From NCBI RefSeq assembly GCF_900105765.1, contig NZ_FNTX01000002.1:496001-560000 (forward strand): a DNA stretch of 64,000 nucleotides, in the 5' to 3' direction. Under the pieces are notes generated by a model, which worked only from the letters and a program-made list of their open reading frames with translations, ran no database searches and was not told the DNA's origin. Below, in pieces: positions 1 to 6,830 of the stretch. The number at the start of each line of letters is the position of its first letter. The first letter of the stretch is position 1. The DNA comes from Ruania alba. Its GTDB lineage: Bacteria; Actinomycetota; Actinomycetes; Actinomycetales; Beutenbergiaceae. Made by a program: the position numbers and the translations under genes.

Positions 1-171
1 GGTGTAGACCTCGTGCAGCCGGCTCTCGATCGCGACGGCCTTCATCCGCAGACCGGACAGCTCGGCGGTATCGGTGTCGATGGCCACGCCATAGACGTTC
101 AGCTGCGCGTCGGCCTGGCCGGACCAGTACCCGTCTCGGTTCCCGTCCGGAACCTGTGCCCCACCGCTCAT
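1..171 (-). CDS. Hypothetical protein, N-terminal part only (gene leaves the window)
   Basis: On the minus strand an ATG at 171 opens a frame of 57 codons that runs off the left edge without a stop. The start overlaps the stop of the neighbouring small gene in an ATGA arrangement, so the two are probably translationally coupled. The visible N-terminus is hydrophilic, with no signal peptide or membrane segment. I do not recognise the family. Next to a WXG100-like partner it could belong to an ESX-type or toxin-like pair, but this is only inference from context. Confidence 0.6.
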   Translation of the reverse strand, partial: MSGGAQVPDGNRDGYWSGQADAQLNVYGVAIDTDTAELSGLRMKAVAIESRLHEVYT

Positions 172-467
172 ACCGGTGTCGGCCCGCCGGTGAGCAGCGC
201 CTGCCGCACGTGGTCGAGCTCGGCCTCGTGAACGCGCGCGGCGGACGCGGCGAGGTCGATGTCGGCAGCGGCTGCCTCGATGGCGGCGGCGAGGTCACGC
301 ACCCGGCGGGTGTACGCCCGTGCCGCAGGAGACTGCCAGTGGGTGGGCTCCAGATTCGCGGTGGCCGTCGCTACCGTCCGCGCATCAGTGGCAGCGGCAG
401 ACAGCGTGATCGACGCGCTCAAGGTCATCGGCGCACCGCCGAGACGGAACGGGGCGGGTGGGTTCAT
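168..467 (-). CDS. Small WXG100-like protein (99 aa)
   Basis: The ATG at 467 is chosen because a perfect AAGGAGG stands 6 nt upstream on the minus strand; the longer open frame to 608 has no such signal. The product is 99 residues, alanine-rich and probably helical, with a W-Q-S-P-A-A-x-x-Y stretch near its middle. That resembles the W-x-x turn region of WXG100/ESX-type helical hairpins. Length and composition fit this fold, but the C-terminal YxxxD/E secretion motif is not clear. It overlaps the next gene by 4 bp. WXG100-like is a fold-level guess. Confidence 0.65.
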   Translation of the reverse strand: MNPPAPFRLGGAPMTLSASITLSAAATDARTVATATANLEPTHWQSPAARAYTRRVRDLAAAIEAAAADIDLAASAARVHEAELDHVRQALLTGGPTPV

Positions 468-597
468 TCGTGGCCTCCTTTTCTTCCGCTCGACGCTAAG
501 GACCGGGCCGGATCGCTGCGGCGGGGCGGCGGAGGGGCTGTGGACGGTGGCGCATCGGCTATCCGCTGGGGACAGCCCACCTGCGATCGGGGGCACA

Positions 598-1140
598 ATG
601 AAGCGCATGCATGAAGGGCCCGTGCTGAACGCGTTGGAGACCGAGCGGCTCCTGCTGCGGCCGCAACGCGCAGATGACGCCGCGGTCTACCACCAGCTGT
701 GGACCGAACGGGATCCGCGCGTGCCCGCCCACCGTCGGATCAGTCCCGAGGGCCACCCCTCCGTCGCCGAGGTCGCCGCGACGATCACCGACGGCAGGAC
801 CCCGGGCCTGCTGGGAGTCGAGCGGAAAGACACCGGCAGCGTGATCGGCTACTGCGGACTGATCGCCCACGGGCACGGTTCACCGGCCGAACCCGAGCTG
901 GCGTACGAGCTGCTGCGCGAGGCGCACGGCCGCGGGTACGCCACCGAGGCCGCTCGGGCTGTGGTGACATGGGCAGGTGAGGCGGGCTATCGCCGGCTGT
1001 GGGCAGGGGTGCGGGACTGGAACCTCGCCTCCCGCCGGGTCCTGCTCAAGCTCGGTTTCCGCGAGACGGACGAGGTGGAGCGCGATGACCGCCACGGCAA
1101 CAGCCTGCTCACCGTCCGAGACTTGTCAGGACTCCCGTGA
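598..1140 (+). CDS. GNAT family N-acetyltransferase (RimJ/RimL-like)
   Basis: A 180-residue protein starting E-T-E-R-L-L-L-R-P shortly after the ATG, the usual opening of RimJ/RimL-type GNAT acetyltransferases. Later it has the acetyl-CoA-binding stretch around G-R-G-Y-A-T-E-A-A and the N-x-A-S-x-R-V-L-x-K-L-G-F motif. It would transfer an acetyl group from acetyl-CoA to an amine; the substrate cannot be told. A second ATG at 607 is possible. The gene lies only 22 bp upstream of the original phosphatase start at 1163, so before the insertion at 1184 the order was GNAT, phosphatase, kinase-like gene in one tight operon. Confidence 0.85.
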   Translation: MKRMHEGPVLNALETERLLLRPQRADDAAVYHQLWTERDPRVPAHRRISPEGHPSVAEVAATITDGRTPGLLGVERKDTGSVIGYCGLIAHGHGSPAEPELAYELLREAHGRGYATEAARAVVTWAGEAGYRRLWAGVRDWNLASRRVLLKLGFRETDEVERDDRHGNSLLTVRDLSGLP

Positions 1141-1162
1141 TGTCAACCTGGAGGAAAAGCCC

Positions 1163-1195
1163 GTGTCGTATCGCTTGAGCGTGGTGTGCACCGGA
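1163..1195 (+). pseudogene. Stranded 5' end of the low-molecular-weight tyrosine phosphatase gene
   Basis: A good ribosome binding site (GGAGG at 1150-1154) precedes a GTG at 1163. The first 11 codons read V-S-Y-R-L-S-V-V-C-T-G, an excellent LMW-PTP N-terminus running into the P-loop. The next codon should be Asn of the C-T-G-N-I-C-R-S motif, but the phosphatase reading is lost here. It resumes at 2959-2970, where the same 12 bp are followed by the N-I-C-R-S codons. Joining 1195 to 2971 gives an uninterrupted phosphatase gene. I therefore read this as the original start, cut off by the insert carrying the reverse transcriptase. Confidence 0.8.
1184..1195 (+). repeat. Left copy of the 12-bp direct repeat (attL-like or target-site duplication)
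   Basis: GTGTGCACCGGA, identical to 2959-2970. It encodes the V-C-T-G residues just before the phosphatase catalytic loop in the stranded gene fragment. Confidence 0.8.
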
Positions 1196-1364
1196 GGTCG
1201 TGGTCTTCGGATACGATCGACGTGCCCAGCAGGGCTGGGGAGGCTTGGTGTCGGGCTGACGCGCGGGAACGCGCCTTGAGACTGCCCACCGATGGGATGC
1301 AGTCGCTGCGGAGCGTACTTTTCCCCCCGACCCAGCCGCCCCCCCACGTTGAACGGGAGGCCTG
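1196..1364 (+). ncRNA. Candidate structured RNA leader of the reverse transcriptase
   Basis: The region before the reverse transcriptase has no convincing protein but a run of hairpins. These are: 1191-1196 with 1205-1210 (6 bp, one G-U); 1225-1230 with 1234-1239 (6 bp, 3-nt loop); 1261-1265 with 1270-1274 (5 bp closed by a GGAA tetraloop, a GNRA type); 1285-1288 with 1293-1296, extended by 1280-1284 with 1300-1304 around a 3-nt bulge. An outer 7-bp stem pairs 1166-1172 in the host flank with 1210-1216 in the insert. C-rich runs follow at 1323-1328 and 1339-1345. Many defence reverse transcriptases use a non-coding RNA encoded directly upstream as template or partner. Position and structure fit that role; the RNA ends are unknown. 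Confidence 0.5.
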
Positions 1365-2906
1365 GTGTTCCGGATAACCGTAGCCGCGCTCGAAACCGAG
1401 TGTGCGAAGTTGATCCGGAAGCAAGAGCAGTACATGAGGCGGATGCGCGACGACGATGTGCGTCGGCTCCGCCGCACCGTACCAGGCAAGGCAGCCCTCC
1501 AGCGCCCGGCATACTGGACGCTTGATTCTGGCTTCAACCCCTACCATGTGCGCGCGCACGCCCCTGCGATCGTCCGGGCGGTGAACCTCGCACTGGTCAA
1601 CAAGGACTACAGACCGCGCCCGCCATACGCACACACCGTTCCGAAGCCGGACGGCGGAAAGAGAATAGTGTCGGTCTTCCAGATCGTCGACGCGGTCGTC
1701 TCGAAGACCATCTATTACTCTTTACTGGGCAAGAACGCCGCGCTGATGAGCGCCCGGTCCTACGCGTATCGACCGGACCTCTCGACTCACGACGCCATCC
1801 AATACGTCTCGAGCGAGTTCGGTACGGACGACCGAATTTACGTTGCTGAGTACGATTTCTCGGACTACTTCGGCTCGATCTCACACGATCACGTTTGGGA
1901 TCTGCTTTCGCGCGAGTTCCTTCTGTCGACACCAGCCGAGAGACAGGTCATCAAGGCATTCCTGCAGGCTCCGCTTCAGCACGGAGCGTACGACCCCCAG
2001 GCCCAAGAGATGCGCAGCGGTCGCGGCTTGCCACAGGGCACGTCGATATCTCTGTTCCTCGCAAATCTTGCCGCCTGGGACGTCGATCGCCAACTAGAAC
2101 GAATGGGTGTGAGTTTCGTCCGTTACGCAGACGACACCTTGATCTGGTCGAGGCGCTATGAAGAGATCAGTCAGGCGGCGAACATCTTGCACCGTGAAAG
2201 CAAGCAAATCGGCGCCAAGATCAATCTAAAGAAGTCGCACGGCATCCGCCTATTCGTTCCCACCGGGGAGCCGACGGAAATGACGCCGACCTCCGAAGTA
2301 AATTTCGTCGGCTACAGGTTTTCGCGCGGGCGCATCGGTCTGCGAGACGAGGTCGTCGTGCGTATGAAGTCCCGCATGCAGTACCTCGTCTGGTCCAACC
2401 TGCTCGAAGCGCTCCAAGCGATGACTTTCAACCCTGGACGTGTCAAAGATCCGATCGACCGCGACTACCAGGTCATGATCATGCAACTCCGCCGCTACCT
2501 GTACGGAAATTTGACCGAGGAACGAGTGCGTGAGTTCCAGCGAGGCGCAATTCGACGTATGCGCTACCCAGGCGTGATGTCGTACTTTCCGCTCGTTGAC
2601 GATGAGGAGCAATTGCGCGCTATCGATGGGTGGCTGTCCTCAATCGTGGCTCAGGCGCTCAAGCGCCGCGCAGATCTCCTTCGGTCTCTGGGGATTCGTA
2701 GCCTCCCAACACCGCACGGTCTGCGTGGCGATGCGTTAGTGCGTGCTCAGGGCAGCACTTCGGCAGGCGTCCCCGTGGACCTGACTATTCCCTCCGTGTC
2801 TCGCTTCGCGTCCGTGCTGAGGAAGGCAGCGAACATGTACGGAGCGAACGTCGTCGGACGCGGGACGGGTGTCGAGGAGTATCAGTACCAGATCTCGGGG
2901 ATGTGA
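1365..2906 (+). CDS. Reverse transcriptase, solitary, defence-type candidate
   Basis: A 513-residue RNA-directed DNA polymerase starting at GTG 1365, 4 nt behind a GGGAGG. Catalytic features are present: a K-P-D-G-G-K-R block near residue 92, the first aspartate in A-E-Y-D-F-S-D-Y-F (Asp164), G-L-P-Q-G-T-S near 221, and Y-A-D-D at 254-257. About 180 residues follow the polymerase core, with L-R-R-Y-L-Y-G-N and a helical, basic tail. There is no maturase-type or HNH endonuclease domain, so it is not an ordinary group II intron protein. At this length, with a structured leader, it best fits the UG/Abi or group-II-like defence reverse transcriptases (DRT types). I cannot assign the class by eye. 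G+C is clearly below the flanks. Confidence 0.9.
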   Translation: MFRITVAALETECAKLIRKQEQYMRRMRDDDVRRLRRTVPGKAALQRPAYWTLDSGFNPYHVRAHAPAIVRAVNLALVNKDYRPRPPYAHTVPKPDGGKRIVSVFQIVDAVVSKTIYYSLLGKNAALMSARSYAYRPDLSTHDAIQYVSSEFGTDDRIYVAEYDFSDYFGSISHDHVWDLLSREFLLSTPAERQVIKAFLQAPLQHGAYDPQAQEMRSGRGLPQGTSISLFLANLAAWDVDRQLERMGVSFVRYADDTLIWSRRYEEISQAANILHRESKQIGAKINLKKSHGIRLFVPTGEPTEMTPTSEVNFVGYRFSRGRIGLRDEVVVRMKSRMQYLVWSNLLEALQAMTFNPGRVKDPIDRDYQVMIMQLRRYLYGNLTEERVREFQRGAIRRMRYPGVMSYFPLVDDEEQLRAIDGWLSSIVAQALKRRADLLRSLGIRSLPTPHGLRGDALVRAQGSTSAGVPVDLTIPSVSRFASVLRKAANMYGANVVGRGTGVEEYQYQISGM

Positions 2907-2941
2907 CGCGGTGACATCGATCCGCGCAGCCAGCACTGGCT
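2907..2941 (+). other. Two small hairpins in the 52-nt tail behind the reverse transcriptase
   Basis: Directly after the stop, 2907-2911 pairs with 2922-2926 (5 bp, 10-nt loop), and 2928-2932 pairs with 2937-2941 (5 bp, GCAC loop). They may end the reverse transcriptase transcript or mark the 3' end of the element. The probable new GTG start of the phosphatase (2911) lies inside the first stem. No poly-T tract follows. Confidence 0.45.
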
Positions 2942-3426
2942 CGTACTCTGTGATGTGCGTGTGCACCGGAAACATCTGCCGTTCCCCGATGGGCGAAGCG
3001 GTACTCCGCGACGCCTTCGAGGCGGCGGGACTCGGTGACCGGGTGGAGGTGGTCTCGGCGGGAACGGGTGCCTGGCACCTCGGCAACGACGCCGACCACC
3101 GGACCCATCGCGTACTGACCGCGAACGGTCATCAGCTCGTGGGGCACCAGGCCACCCAGTTCGCGGCCGAGGACTTCGCCGCGCTGGACCTGGTGCTCGC
3201 CCTCGACGGCAGTCACGAACGCGCCCTGCGCCGGCTGGCCCCCGACGCCACGGCACGCGCCAAGATCCGGCTGCTGCGCAGCTTCGACCCGGACGCCCCG
3301 GAGGGTGCGGACGTGGCCGATCCCTACTATGGCGAGCACAGCGACTTCGAGACCGTGTACGAGCAGGTGAGTGCCGCCGTCGACGGCATCGTGCGGTACG
3401 TGCAGACGGAGCTGGCGGGGCGCTGA
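2911..3426 (+). CDS. Low-molecular-weight protein tyrosine phosphatase, restarted behind the insert
   Basis: The P-loop C-V-C-T-G-N-I-C-R-S sits at about residues 16-25 and the catalytic D-P-Y-Y near the C-terminus, so all LMW-PTP residues are there. Such enzymes dephosphorylate tyrosine-phosphorylated proteins, often in cell-envelope polysaccharide control. The start is uncertain. GTG 2911 gives 171 aa and follows the reverse transcriptase stop by 4 bp but has no ribosome binding site; GTG 2950 and ATG 2953 are alternatives. The authentic start with its ribosome binding site is stranded at 1163. The stop overlaps the next gene start by one base (TGATG), so it is coupled to the fructosamine-kinase-like gene. 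Confidence 0.88.
   Translation: MTSIRAASTGSYSVMCVCTGNICRSPMGEAVLRDAFEAAGLGDRVEVVSAGTGAWHLGNDADHRTHRVLTANGHQLVGHQATQFAAEDFAALDLVLALDGSHERALRRLAPDATARAKIRLLRSFDPDAPEGADVADPYYGEHSDFETVYEQVSAAVDGIVRYVQTELAGR
2959..2970 (+). repeat. Right copy of the 12-bp direct repeat
   Basis: GTGTGCACCGGA, identical to 1184-1195, here followed in frame by the N-I-C-R-S codons of the phosphatase. Confidence 0.8.
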
Positions 3427-4208
3427 TGAGGACCTGGCGCAAGACCGACTTTCCGCATCCGGACGCCGCCCTCGCCGAGGCCGATGGGTTGCGTTGGCTG
3501 GCCCAGCCCGACGGCGGAGCTCGCGTGGCGCAGGTGCGTCACGCTGAGCCGGGGCTGCTCGACCTGGAGCACGTGAGCACCGGCGGCGGGAGTGCCGCGA
3601 TGGCTCACGCGTTCGGCGCCGCCCTGGCCCGCACCCATGCGGCCGGGGCGCCCTCCTTCGGGTACGTCCCGGGGTCCACCGGCGGTTTCATGGCCGGGGC
3701 ACCGATGCCCGGCTCGGAGGCCGCGACGTGGGGTGAGTTCTACGCCGAGGCCCGGGTGCTGCCCTACGTGCGCAGGGCAGCGGAAGCCGGCGCGTTCCGT
3801 GACCCTGAGATTGCCGTGTTCGAGGCAGTGGCCGAGCGGCTGCGGTCGGGGGAGCTGGACCACGCACAACCTGGCCTGTTGCGCACCGGAGGGACCGCCG
3901 TCGCGCGACTGCACGGTGACCTGTGGAGCGGCAACGTGCTCTGGGGTGACGGCGATCCGGGTGAGGTGGTGCTCATCGACGCCACCGCGCACGGCGGGCA
4001 CGCCGAGACCGACCTGGCGATGCTGGACCTGTTCGGTACTCCGCACCTGGACGAAATCCTCGCGGGATACCAGGAGGTCTCCCCGCTGGCGGACGGCTGG
4101 CAGGAGCGGGTGGCGCTGCACCAGCTCAACCCGCTGCTGGTGCACACGGTGCTGTTCGGCGGCGGGTACGCCCAGGCCGCCCTCGCCGCCGCCGCCCGCT
4201 ACCGCTGA
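3426..4208 (+). CDS. Fructosamine kinase family protein (ketosamine-3-kinase-like)
   Basis: A 260-residue protein with the R-L-H-G-D-L-W-S-G-N-V-L-W catalytic block (about 158-170) and a later D-A-T metal site, as in fructosamine/ketosamine-3-kinases. These phosphorylate sugar adducts on protein amines so that the adducts fall off. The N-terminus begins close to the conserved R-K-T lysine region, so the glycine-rich loop of longer homologues is missing. Shorter actinobacterial members like this are common, so it is not necessarily truncated. It is coupled to the phosphatase by a one-base overlap. Confidence 0.85.
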   Translation: MRTWRKTDFPHPDAALAEADGLRWLAQPDGGARVAQVRHAEPGLLDLEHVSTGGGSAAMAHAFGAALARTHAAGAPSFGYVPGSTGGFMAGAPMPGSEAATWGEFYAEARVLPYVRRAAEAGAFRDPEIAVFEAVAERLRSGELDHAQPGLLRTGGTAVARLHGDLWSGNVLWGDGDPGEVVLIDATAHGGHAETDLAMLDLFGTPHLDEILAGYQEVSPLADGWQERVALHQLNPLLVHTVLFGGGYAQAALAAAARYR

Positions 4209-4236
4209 CCCACCCCGCACCTCTGACCCCCACTCC

Positions 4237-4310
4237 GCGAGTGCGGCCAATCTCGCTCACCTGGTGAGATATTCGCGAAATGGGCAGCACTCGATCCCCG
4301 GCGAGTGCGG
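4237..4310. promoter_or_regulatory. Palindromes and direct repeats in the gap before the hydrolase gene
   Basis: The 249-bp gap 4209-4457 holds a perfect 6+1+6 palindrome (CTCACC-T-GGTGAG, 4256-4268), an 8-bp palindrome TTCGCGAA (4272-4279), and a 10-bp direct repeat GCGAGTGCGG at 4237-4246 and 4301-4310. They look like operator or promoter elements for the gene at 4458. No regulator can be named. Confidence 0.4.
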
Positions 4311-4457
4311 GCGGGTGGTCATCGACGGACCATCACTCCGCTCCCGAGCACCTGTCGTGGCGGTCCGACCGACTTCGCCGCGGCACCGATGAGTTCGCAC
4401 CCGGTCCGTAGTCCATCGTGATGAAGAGTCCCGCAACGCCACCCGTGGAGGTTCATG

Positions 4458-5336
4458 ATGCATCCGACGACCGACTCGCCCCAGCCCCGTACTGTCGGCA
4501 CGGTCGAGGTGAACGGCGTGCGGCTCGGGATCGAGCAGTTCGGCAACCCGGCGGACCGGCTCGTCCTGTGCGCGGGCGGCACCACGATGCTCTCCTGGCC
4601 CGATGAGCTCTGCGCGGCTCTCGCACTCGGCGGTCGGCACGTGGTGCGCTACGACCTGCGCGACTCCGGCGCCTCGCTCACCTCGGACCCCGAGAGTCCG
4701 GCGTACACGCTGCGCGACCTCGCCGCAGACGCGGCGGCACTCGCCCGTGAGCTCGACCACCGGACGGCGCACCTAGCCGGTATCGGCGTCAGTGGGATGG
4801 TGGCCCAGGTCGCTGCGCTCGACCACCCGGACGCGTTCTGCGCACTCACTCTGGCCGGAACCCGATCCGTCGCCCCGGGACCGGTCGATGACGACCTGCC
4901 CGATCATGATGAGGCAACGATGGACCGGCTGTTCTCCGGCCCGATGCCCGACTGGTCCGATCGCGAGGCGGTGGCAGCGTTCGCTGCCAAGGGCGCTGAG
5001 ATCCTCGGCGACGACCCTGCCGCTGCCCGTGCCGTGGCCGGGCGCATCTGGGACCGCACGCCAGGCACGGCGCCGGCGGTGCACATGGCGAACCAGCTGG
5101 GCATGGTGTTCGCCGGCTTGGACTGCACCCCACGCTGGCGCGAGCGGCTGGCCGAGATCACGCTGCCGAGCCTCGTGGTGCACGGCCGCCGCGACCCGTT
5201 CTTCCCCGTGGGGAACGGCGAAGCGCTCGCCCGCGAGATCCCCGGTGCGCGCCTGCTCGTTCTCGACGGCGCTTCGACGGCGATCCCCAGCGCGTCAGCC
5301 GACGACGTCGCGACGGCGATGCTCGCCCTCTCGTAG
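4458..5336 (+). CDS. Alpha/beta hydrolase-fold protein with altered catalytic positions
   Basis: A 292-residue protein with the fold of RdmC/EstB-type alpha/beta hydrolases: G-N-P-A-D-R-L strand, D-L-R-D-S-G-A-S loop, and a late V-H-G-R-R-D-P-F-F-P strand that keeps the acid residue. The nucleophile elbow, usually G-A-S-M-G-G-M, reads G-I-G-V-S-G-M, so glycine stands at the serine position. The C-terminal stretch that should carry the catalytic histidine reads L-D-G-A-S-T-A-I-P-S. Serine and histidine therefore both seem lost. The second of two adjacent ATGs (4458) is chosen because it is 6 nt behind GGAGG. It may be a non-catalytic or binding protein. Confidence 0.8.
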   Translation: MHPTTDSPQPRTVGTVEVNGVRLGIEQFGNPADRLVLCAGGTTMLSWPDELCAALALGGRHVVRYDLRDSGASLTSDPESPAYTLRDLAADAAALARELDHRTAHLAGIGVSGMVAQVAALDHPDAFCALTLAGTRSVAPGPVDDDLPDHDEATMDRLFSGPMPDWSDREAVAAFAAKGAEILGDDPAAARAVAGRIWDRTPGTAPAVHMANQLGMVFAGLDCTPRWRERLAEITLPSLVVHGRRDPFFPVGNGEALAREIPGARLLVLDGASTAIPSASADDVATAMLALS

Positions 5337-5405
5337 CAGGGTGGCGGTGTGGGCGCGGCGTCGGCCAGGTTCGGGGGGTCGGGCAGGGTCTGGGATGATG
5401 TGATC

Positions 5406-6830
5406 ATGGAGCGCGTTCCCTTCGCCGAGTTGCCCGATATCGCCCTCGGCCCGTTGGACGGCCGCTACCGCGGAGCCGTGGCCCCGCTGGTGGATCACCT
5501 CTCCGAGGCGGCGCTGAACCGCGCCCGGCTGCACGTGGAGGTGGAGTGGCTGATCCACCTGACCACGAACCACATCCTGCCCGGCGCCCCGGGCCTGAGC
5601 GAGGCCGAGATCGCCTACCTGCGTGACGTCGTCGCCACCTTCGGTGCCGAGGAGATCGCCGAGCTCGCCACGATCGAGCGGGAGACCCTGCACGACGTGA
5701 AGGCGGTGGAGTACTTCCTGAAGCGGCGCCTGGCCTCCGCCCCGGACACCCTCGGCGAGACTGTCCTTCCGCAGGTCTCGGAGATCGTGCACATCTTCTG
5801 CACCAGCGAGGACATCAACAACCTGAGCTATGCGCTCACGGTGCGCGACGCCGTCACCGACGTATGGCTGCCCTCGGCACGCAGTGCCACCGACGCGGTG
5901 GCGGACCTGGCCCGCGAGCACGCCGATGTGCCGATGCTGGCCCGCACGCACGGACAGGCGGCCACCCCGGTGACCCTCGGCAAGGAGCTCGCGGTGCTCG
6001 CGCACCGGCTCCGCCGGCAGATCCGCCGGATCGAGGCGGCCGAGTACCTCGGCAAGATCAACGGCGCCACGGGCACCTACGGGGCGCACACGGTCTCGGT
6101 GCCGGATGCCGACTGGCAGCAGGTCGCCCGCGCGTTCGTGGAGCACCTGGGCCTCACCTGGAACCCGCTCACCACGCAGATCGAGAGCCATGACTGGCAG
6201 GCCGAGGTGTACGCGGACATGGCGCGCTTCAACCGGATCCTGCACAATCTCGCCACCGACGTGTGGACCTACATCTCACTCGGGTACTTCCGCCAGCGGC
6301 TCTCCGCCCAGGGATCCACCGGATCCTCGACGATGCCGCACAAGGTGAACCCGATCCGGTTCGAGAACGCCGAGGCGAACCTGGAGATCTCCTGCGCACT
6401 GCTGGACACGCTCTCGGCCACCCTGGTCACCTCCCGGCTGCAGCGCGACCTCACCGACTCCACCACCCAGCGCAACATCGGGGTAGCGTTCGGGCACTCG
6501 ATGCTCGCCCTGGACAACGTACGCCGCGGGCTCGCCGGGCTGGACGTGGACGCCGCGACCATGGCCGCCGACCTCGACGCCAACTGGGAGGTACTCGGCG
6601 AGGCCGTGCAGTCGGCCATGCGGGCCGCAGGGATCGCCGGCGCCCAGGGCATGGCCGACCCGTACGAGCGACTCAAGGAGCTCACCCGCGGGCGTCGCGT
6701 GGACGGGCCCGCGATGCGGGAGTTCATCTCCGGCCTGGGCCTGCCCGACGACGTCCAGGCTCGCCTGCTCGCCCTCTCCCCCGCCGACTATGTGGGCCTG
6801 GCTCCGCAGCTGGTGGCGCACCTGGACTGA
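5406..6830 (+). CDS. purB: Adenylosuccinate lyase
   Basis: A 474-residue member of the fumarase/aspartase superfamily. The signature S-S-T-M-P-H-K-V-N-P-I (about 310-320), the S-E-D-I-N-N-L-S-Y block and A-R-T-H-G-Q-A-A mark it as the longer PurB type found in gamma-proteobacteria and many actinomycetes. It removes fumarate from SAICAR and from adenylosuccinate in purine synthesis. ATG 5406 is the first reasonable start; there is no strong ribosome binding site. It stands alone and ends in a strong hairpin shared with the convergent transporter gene. Confidence 0.95.
   Translation: MERVPFAELPDIALGPLDGRYRGAVAPLVDHLSEAALNRARLHVEVEWLIHLTTNHILPGAPGLSEAEIAYLRDVVATFGAEEIAELATIERETLHDVKAVEYFLKRRLASAPDTLGETVLPQVSEIVHIFCTSEDINNLSYALTVRDAVTDVWLPSARSATDAVADLAREHADVPMLARTHGQAATPVTLGKELAVLAHRLRRQIRRIEAAEYLGKINGATGTYGAHTVSVPDADWQQVARAFVEHLGLTWNPLTTQIESHDWQAEVYADMARFNRILHNLATDVWTYISLGYFRQRLSAQGSTGSSTMPHKVNPIRFENAEANLEISCALLDTLSATLVTSRLQRDLTDSTTQRNIGVAFGHSMLALDNVRRGLAGLDVDAATMAADLDANWEVLGEAVQSAMRAAGIAGAQGMADPYERLKELTRGRRVDGPAMREFISGLGLPDDVQARLLALSPADYVGLAPQLVAHLD

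Follow-up and report, generated by a model that had tools for sequence, protein, structure and literature searches.

In the actinobacterium Ruania alba, a gene for a low-molecular-weight protein tyrosine phosphatase (LMW-PTP) has been split by a short cassette carrying a reverse transcriptase (RT) of the defence type DRT9, and a complete phosphatase gene is read again on the far side of the cassette, with a 5' end that very probably came in with the insert. The locus was studied in a 64-kb stretch of the genome, referred to here as the window (also where it is counted among other loci), and all coordinates are positions in that stretch. We consider it probable, although by no means assured, that a passenger DRT9 cassette was placed by recombination of the site-specific type at the codons of the phosphatase P-loop, whereby the 5' end of the gene was exchanged.

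Interruption of the phosphatase gene

The original prediction, made from the sequence of the window, was that an RT cassette had divided a phosphatase gene. The following components of it were recovered: a GTG and 11 phosphatase codons at 1163–1195, behind a ribosome-binding site recognised by eye, an exact 12-bp repeat at 1184–1195 and 2959–2970, and a complete phosphatase frame at 2911–3426 (Table 1). The 12-mer GTGTGCACCGGA occurs twice in the 4.83-Mb genome, both times at the junctions, and the same pattern written backwards, used as a control, does not occur. Twelve is also the length of the longest exact repeat between the flanks, as compared with at most 10 in 20 shuffles.

Alignment with related genomes, which had been proposed as a check, revealed the site without the insert. 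Seven genomes of the same genus were compared, four of which (G001, G002, G004 and G006) possess a close phosphatase (75–79% amino acid identity), while G003, G005 and G007 gave only weaker matches (best 41–45%) and were left out of the locus comparison. All four close phosphatases have one uninterrupted start, M(T/G)YRISVVCTGNICRSP, of the kind found at 1163, and none starts as at 2911. G002 (locus L010) represents the empty site: the genes for the GNAT acetyltransferase, the phosphatase and the fructosamine kinase follow one another in the same order as in the window, with a single phosphatase start (ATG ACC TAC CGA ATC AGC GTG GTG TGC ACC GGG AAC ATC). The kinase neighbour is common to all four congeners (75–84% amino acid identity) and the GNAT neighbour (76%) was seen in G002 alone, with no GNAT match in the fetched stretches of G001, G004 and G006. 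The empty site and the uninterrupted starts confirm, at the level of sequence, that 1163–1195 is the displaced native beginning of the gene and that the insertion into it is real.

The direct-repeat cores at both junctions match the empty site, the core being identical at 10–11 of 12 positions in the four congeners. An 11-mer corresponding to the core was single in 28 of 29 fetched phosphatase loci of relatives with one mismatch allowed; in this count L031 was unmatched by the search expression, flanks extended over 1.5 kb or less, and L037 offered only about 30 nt upstream. In the 21 nt preceding the core, the left copy agrees with the four congeners at 13–14 positions and the right copy at 4–6. 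Compared with G002, nucleotide identity rises from 0.33 over the six codons that precede the core to 0.92 within it, and amounts to 0.85–0.86 over the 50 codons that follow. Because identity to the congeners jumps at the core, both exchanges appear to have occurred within the 12 bp or next to them.

The two starts read SYRLSVVCTG (left remnant) and SYSVMCVCTG (right). On a phosphatase profile derived from 29 relatives, only 0.064% of random hexapeptides from the window score as well as the six codons of the right arm, and a similar proportion (0.12%) reaches the score of the native left codons. Since the right-arm codons outscore 99.9% of random hexapeptides, this arm very probably descends from a phosphatase gene. 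The suggestion that the insert furnishes a replacement 5' end is thus upheld, the right arm being phosphatase-like on the profile and unlike the congeners. The G+C content of the insert (0.606) is below that of the GNAT (0.708), phosphatase (0.711) and kinase (0.731) genes, and values as low were encountered in 2 of 623 segments of equal size.

A right arm that resembles a real foreign phosphatase start would also be expected if the cassette had been acquired by illegitimate or homology-assisted recombination with a donor in which DRT9 lies beside another phosphatase gene, with long homology used on the right and microhomology on the left. Identity to G002 is indeed uneven downstream, falling to 0.69 in codons 100–130, compared with 0.79–0.84 for the other three congeners. 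However, homologous replacement fits poorly, because sequence like that of the congeners resumes at the core itself, and no LMW-PTP motif was present near the RT in any of the 85 other RT entries described below. We regard such an origin as distinctly unlikely.

Table 1. Features of the interrupted phosphatase locus of R. alba (positions in the 64-kb window)
Feature	Position	Strand	Evidence
GNAT acetyltransferase gene, left neighbour	607..1140	+	Pfam Acetyltransf_3, E 3.7e-25; same neighbour (76% amino acid identity) at G002 empty site
Displaced native LMW-PTP 5' end, GTG and 10 codons, VSYRLSVVCTG	1163..1195	+	Congener starts M(T/G)YRISVVCTG (n=4)
Left copy of 12-bp core GTGTGCACCGGA, left junction, attL-like	1184..1195	+	Exact repeat, genome-unique pair
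Inserted cassette, 1763 bp: left arm, non-coding RNA region, RT gene, right arm with replacement phosphatase 5' end	1196..2958	+	Empty site in G002; low G+C content
Candidate -10 box TACGAT of a putative non-coding RNA promoter, 16 bp inside left junction	1212..1217	+	By eye
Putative DRT9 non-coding RNA region, start uncertain	1219..1364	+	U-tract motif GCGTACTTTT at 1313–1322
DRT9 (UG28) reverse transcriptase, 513 amino acids, YADD, C-terminal YQY	1365..2906	+	PADLOC Drt9; solved chain 9ioa
Re-started LMW-PTP gene, 171 amino acids, GTG start	2911..3426	+	Pfam LMWPc, E 5e-43; first 48 nt inside insert
Insert-supplied replacement phosphatase codons SYSVMC	2941..2958	+	Phosphatase profile score; poor congener match
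Right copy of 12-bp core, right junction, attR-like	2959..2970	+	Exact repeat, genome-unique pair
Fructosamine-kinase family gene, right neighbour	3426..4208	+	Pfam Fructosamin_kin, E 4e-30; 75–84% amino acid identity, beside the phosphatase in four congeners

The fructosamine-kinase gene stands directly 3' of the phosphatase gene (2911–4208 together), as in the four congeners, and we take the two to be a possible protein-deglycation operon.

Identity of the reverse transcriptase

The RT of the insert is a DRT9 defence reverse transcriptase. It matched the PADLOC profile Drt9 (PDLC03766) with an E-value of 2e-176, residues 7–501 of 513 aligning with profile positions 7–483 of 488, with the next model at E 9.5e-33, and it matched the solved chain 9ioa at E 5.9e-102. 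The YADD motif is invariant in six of six aligned RTs, and the C-terminal YQY of the window RT aligns one residue off its relatives. Based on the Drt9 profile with E up to 1e-60, the system is rare in the vicinity of this genome, being detected in 4 of 396 sampled genomes of the order, 1 of 394 of the class and 1 of 396 of the phylum, the R. alba genome included each time. According to the report on these systems (PMC12483538), DRT9 consists of an RT and an upstream non-coding RNA (ncRNA), whose U-rich stretch is the template for poly-dA, with C-terminal tyrosines as primers.

A group II intron or other target-primed retroelement was considered and found no support. Pfam searches returned RVT_1 only (E up to 0.001), the group II maturase model gave 133 bits against a cut-off of 300, and Rfam had no match up to E 1 in 900–3500; neither a maturase or endonuclease domain nor an intron RNA was recognised by these searches. 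The original prediction had also considered an unrecognised element moved by its own RT. In such an insertion, target-primed or through complementary DNA (cDNA), the 12 bp would make a suitable target-site duplication, and the RT is the only long open reading frame (ORF) of the insert. The phosphatase-like right end is not predicted by it and would have to be accidental, and homologues of the RT lie within apparently ordinary recombination platforms: an integron-like array, tRNA-Gly genes and the end of another gene (see below). We know of no mobility function for DRT9. The poly-dA synthesis of DRT9 is moreover protein-primed (PMC12483538). With the RT recognised as DRT9, RT-driven insertion appears highly improbable, whereas the other option offered at the outset, a defence cassette moved by recombination, gained support both from this identity and from the platforms in which the homologues lie as cargo.

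Putative upstream RNA region

A structured RNA had been predicted in the insert. The U-tract motif in this region has counterparts in relatives, which carry GCACATTTT or CTTACTTTTA in the matching place, together with TAGAAT- or TATCAT-like boxes positioned, as judged by eye, similarly to the TACGAT of the window. The fold of 1217–1364 was not unusually stable (z -1.21), and a covariance model (R1), built from nine actinobacterial relatives with the window left out, gave an in-place match of 0.8 bits (E 3.5), below 21 others in 5 kb. An ncRNA of the DRT9 type upstream of the RT is therefore likely yet putative: position and motif fit and make the predicted RNA plausible, but neither fold stability nor the covariance model bore it out. 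At 1319–1328 of the window, the U4 of the putative template is directly followed by C6 (UUUUCCCCCC); in L055 and L060 the run of C at this place is shorter.

Homologous reverse transcriptases at other loci

The comparison comprised 85 other entries, all homologues of the window RT, namely 79 loci from the best 80 of 96 matches, the best 2 of 12, and four from further searches; L045 and L066 are a duplicate pair among them, and the Drt9 profile was applied to the matches from the order sample only. For 78 of these 85 the frame of the RT could be placed, and 16 entries have less than 1 kb of flank on a side. No LMW-PTP P-loop motif was found in any of the 85. Recurrence of homologous RTs at the phosphatase, a check proposed with the original prediction, was thus not seen among them, which counts against the prediction for the family but not for the R. 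alba locus.

Of 74 entries with enough flank, the window counted among them, 5 (L070, L072, L078, L090 and L051) have strong repeats (z above 14) that flank the RT at no more than 500 bp. When the reach was extended to 4.5 kb, 13 of the 79 entries whose RT had been located showed direct repeats; the 12-bp repeat of the window is too short for that search, and the window does not count among the 13. In L057 (Mycolicibacterium porcinum) and L082 (Pseudomonas sediminis), direct repeats of 54 bp and 73 bp, respectively, overlap tRNA-Gly(CCC) and bound the stretch with the RT. In L070 (Photobacterium sanctipauli; 64–3510), attC-like repeats enclose the RT unit, and beyond it there is another copy of 92 bp that is 98% identical; from their features we take the repeats to be integron attC sites, and the unit looks like an integron cassette. 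In L078 (Wohlfahrtiimonas populi; 4173–6532), the RT unit is found at the 3' end of a gene for a thioredoxin/DsbA-like protein, and 49 bp of the gene end are repeated after the RT (45/49 identical). Of the positions that tell the two copies apart, two favour the right one as the native end of the gene and one speaks against it, so that this assignment is weak. A crude scan for motifs picked up ORFs resembling recombinases in 5 of the 86 entries. From the homologues at tRNA-Gly, in the integron-like array and at the end of another gene, the RT looks like cargo of several platforms.

Two further entries with flanking repeats were inspected. The RT unit of L090 (Flavobacterium silvaticum) is embedded in arrayed repeats that are related to one another and approximately 60–150 bp long, with inverted ends recognised by eye. 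The flanking repeat of L051 was rejected as a junction, since it reads as two copies of an unrelated gene.

Searches of mobile elements with blastn (1150–2990 against plasmids and phages) gave no match; tblastn of the RT retrieved two plasmids at an E limit of 1e-30 but, at 1e-20, no phage. Single-protein scans of genome contigs and viral contigs produced no confirmed relative; relatives were found by alignment queries. In one viral contig with an LMW-PTP P-loop (L141, 10893–11222), which by eye resembles a tailed phage, the sequence enters the start of an LMW-PTP gene, which may be the edge of a prophage near the phosphatase; no clear junction emerged, and it was not used as evidence. A second viral match (L159) was dropped as a chance hit, as the phosphatase did not continue in 501 nt.

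Proposed mechanism of insertion

We propose that the DRT9 cassette, consisting of a short upstream ncRNA and one RT, would insert as a discrete unit at the codons of the catalytic P-loop of the LMW-PTP. Recombination would take place within the 12-bp core common to the chromosome (an attachment site resembling attB) and a presumed circular form of the cassette (resembling attP). One arm of the latter would encode a stand-in for the first strand of the phosphatase, the codons replaced here being presumably those of beta strand 1. As this arm supplies the stand-in strand, the phosphatase frame would remain complete downstream of the RT, and its native first 11 codons would be left stranded on the left of the insert. 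The re-started gene, which we presume to be expressed, is probably translated in coupling with the RT, since its GTG begins after a gap of 4 nt from the RT stop codon. The RT would be passenger cargo and, by homology, would copy its ncRNA into poly-dA when a phage infects, with a presumed antiphage effect.

The insert showed no recombinase, as had been noted originally; the RT is its only ORF longer than 200 amino acids, and for the shorter ones no family search was made. A site-specific recombinase may hence have acted in trans or since been lost. The genome has two PF00589 matches, both XerD/XerC-like: the first exceeds the cut-off for tyrosine recombinases in general and, apart from that model, has its best score with XerD, the second has its best score with XerC, and both remain below the XerD and XerC cut-offs. 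No PF07508 match was found in the genome; other recombinase families were not sought.

The main competing explanation is that the insert is what remains of a larger, integrase-bearing island, which had integrated at the P-loop with replacement of the gene's 5' end and later lost its integrase and other genes. The geometry resembles that of the dusA islands discussed below, and the homologous RTs of L057 and L082 occur in larger, repeat-flanked stretches at tRNA-Gly. Little DNA, however, is left over from such an island: the left core and the candidate -10 box lie 16 bp apart, and the RT stop codon is 52 bp away from the right core, with the RT as the only long ORF. In the genome, too, PF00589 matched only the XerD/XerC-like proteins just described, and PF07508 had no match. 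We consider this origin rather unlikely, and continue to favour a passenger cassette that was put in place by recombination of the site-specific kind.

Several results weigh against this preference. Neither a recombinase, nor a circular form, nor another element with this core came to light, and the core common to both junctions is short. A generic alignment of flank against flank gave an ordinary score for the window (z 0.9), and identity to G002 is uneven downstream of the core. The likeness of the right arm to a phosphatase could be due in part to selection after the insertion, and R1 did not recover the ncRNA. Finally, because none of the 85 other entries shows the phosphatase motif, the insertion at this gene could be a one-off event.

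A bolder generalisation is that DRT9 units are minimal mobile defence cassettes of approximately 1.8 kb, free of recombinases, whose attachment arms imitate the termini of conserved genes of the host (the start of LMW-PTP here, the end of the thioredoxin/DsbA-like gene in L078) and which insert without damage to the host gene by means of borrowed recombinases or, in the boldest form, the RT's own cDNA. We offer this as speculation that is itself quite unlikely to hold.

In the favoured reading, a single two-component defence system has apparently been moved as a very small integrative unit, with the target gene kept readable. The P-loop of LMW-PTP may now be regarded as a candidate site at which actinobacterial elements attach, and the unique 12-bp core would permit a direct test of excision by polymerase chain reaction.

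Comparison with known systems

DRT9 and integration at gene ends are both already known. A minimal, recombinase-free DRT9 unit at LMW-PTP with replacement of the 5' end was not met in the literature searched, in which coverage of subscription papers was limited. Little was found on the spread of DRT9, and nothing that paired DRT9 with a genomic island; a broad search on DRT9 and mobility had no DRT9 among its top-ranked results. A search on defence-associated RTs and integron cassettes brought up passing mentions of such RTs, and on LMW-PTP and integrases, titles and opening lines of abstracts held nothing relevant.

The insert resembles the DRT9 systems SenDRT9 and PsaDRT9 in the nearly full-length RT match, the YADD motif and a short upstream region with a U-tract motif; two candidate priming tyrosines, one residue apart, also lie near the C-terminus of its RT. 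It differs from them in its position inside a gene between att-like repeats, and in an ncRNA region that was missed by the model of nine actinobacterial relatives and has C6 after U4. With the defence-gene cassettes of integrons it shares, on our reading of L070 from P. sanctipauli, a single DRT9 unit as the movable cassette; in contrast to these, there is no array in R. alba, and the homology at the junctions is phosphatase coding sequence.

The nearest parallel in geometry is provided by the dusA-specific genomic islands, which replace the 5' end of their target gene and supply a new first beta strand (PMC4482086). From the same source, the likeness extends to insertion in the 5' end of a conserved gene, a replacement derived from the element, a native 5' end moved to the opposite side of the element, and short, semi-conserved direct repeats. 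An element-supplied 5' end is evident in R. alba from the identity step, the phosphatase profile and the 21-nt match. An integrase encoded by the element, which marks the dusA type, was not seen in the insert; the target is LMW-PTP, the core has 12 bp and the insert 1763 bp. By analogy with the geometry of these islands, the arrangement would be accounted for if a circular cassette had undergone site-specific recombination with the P-loop codons of the phosphatase.

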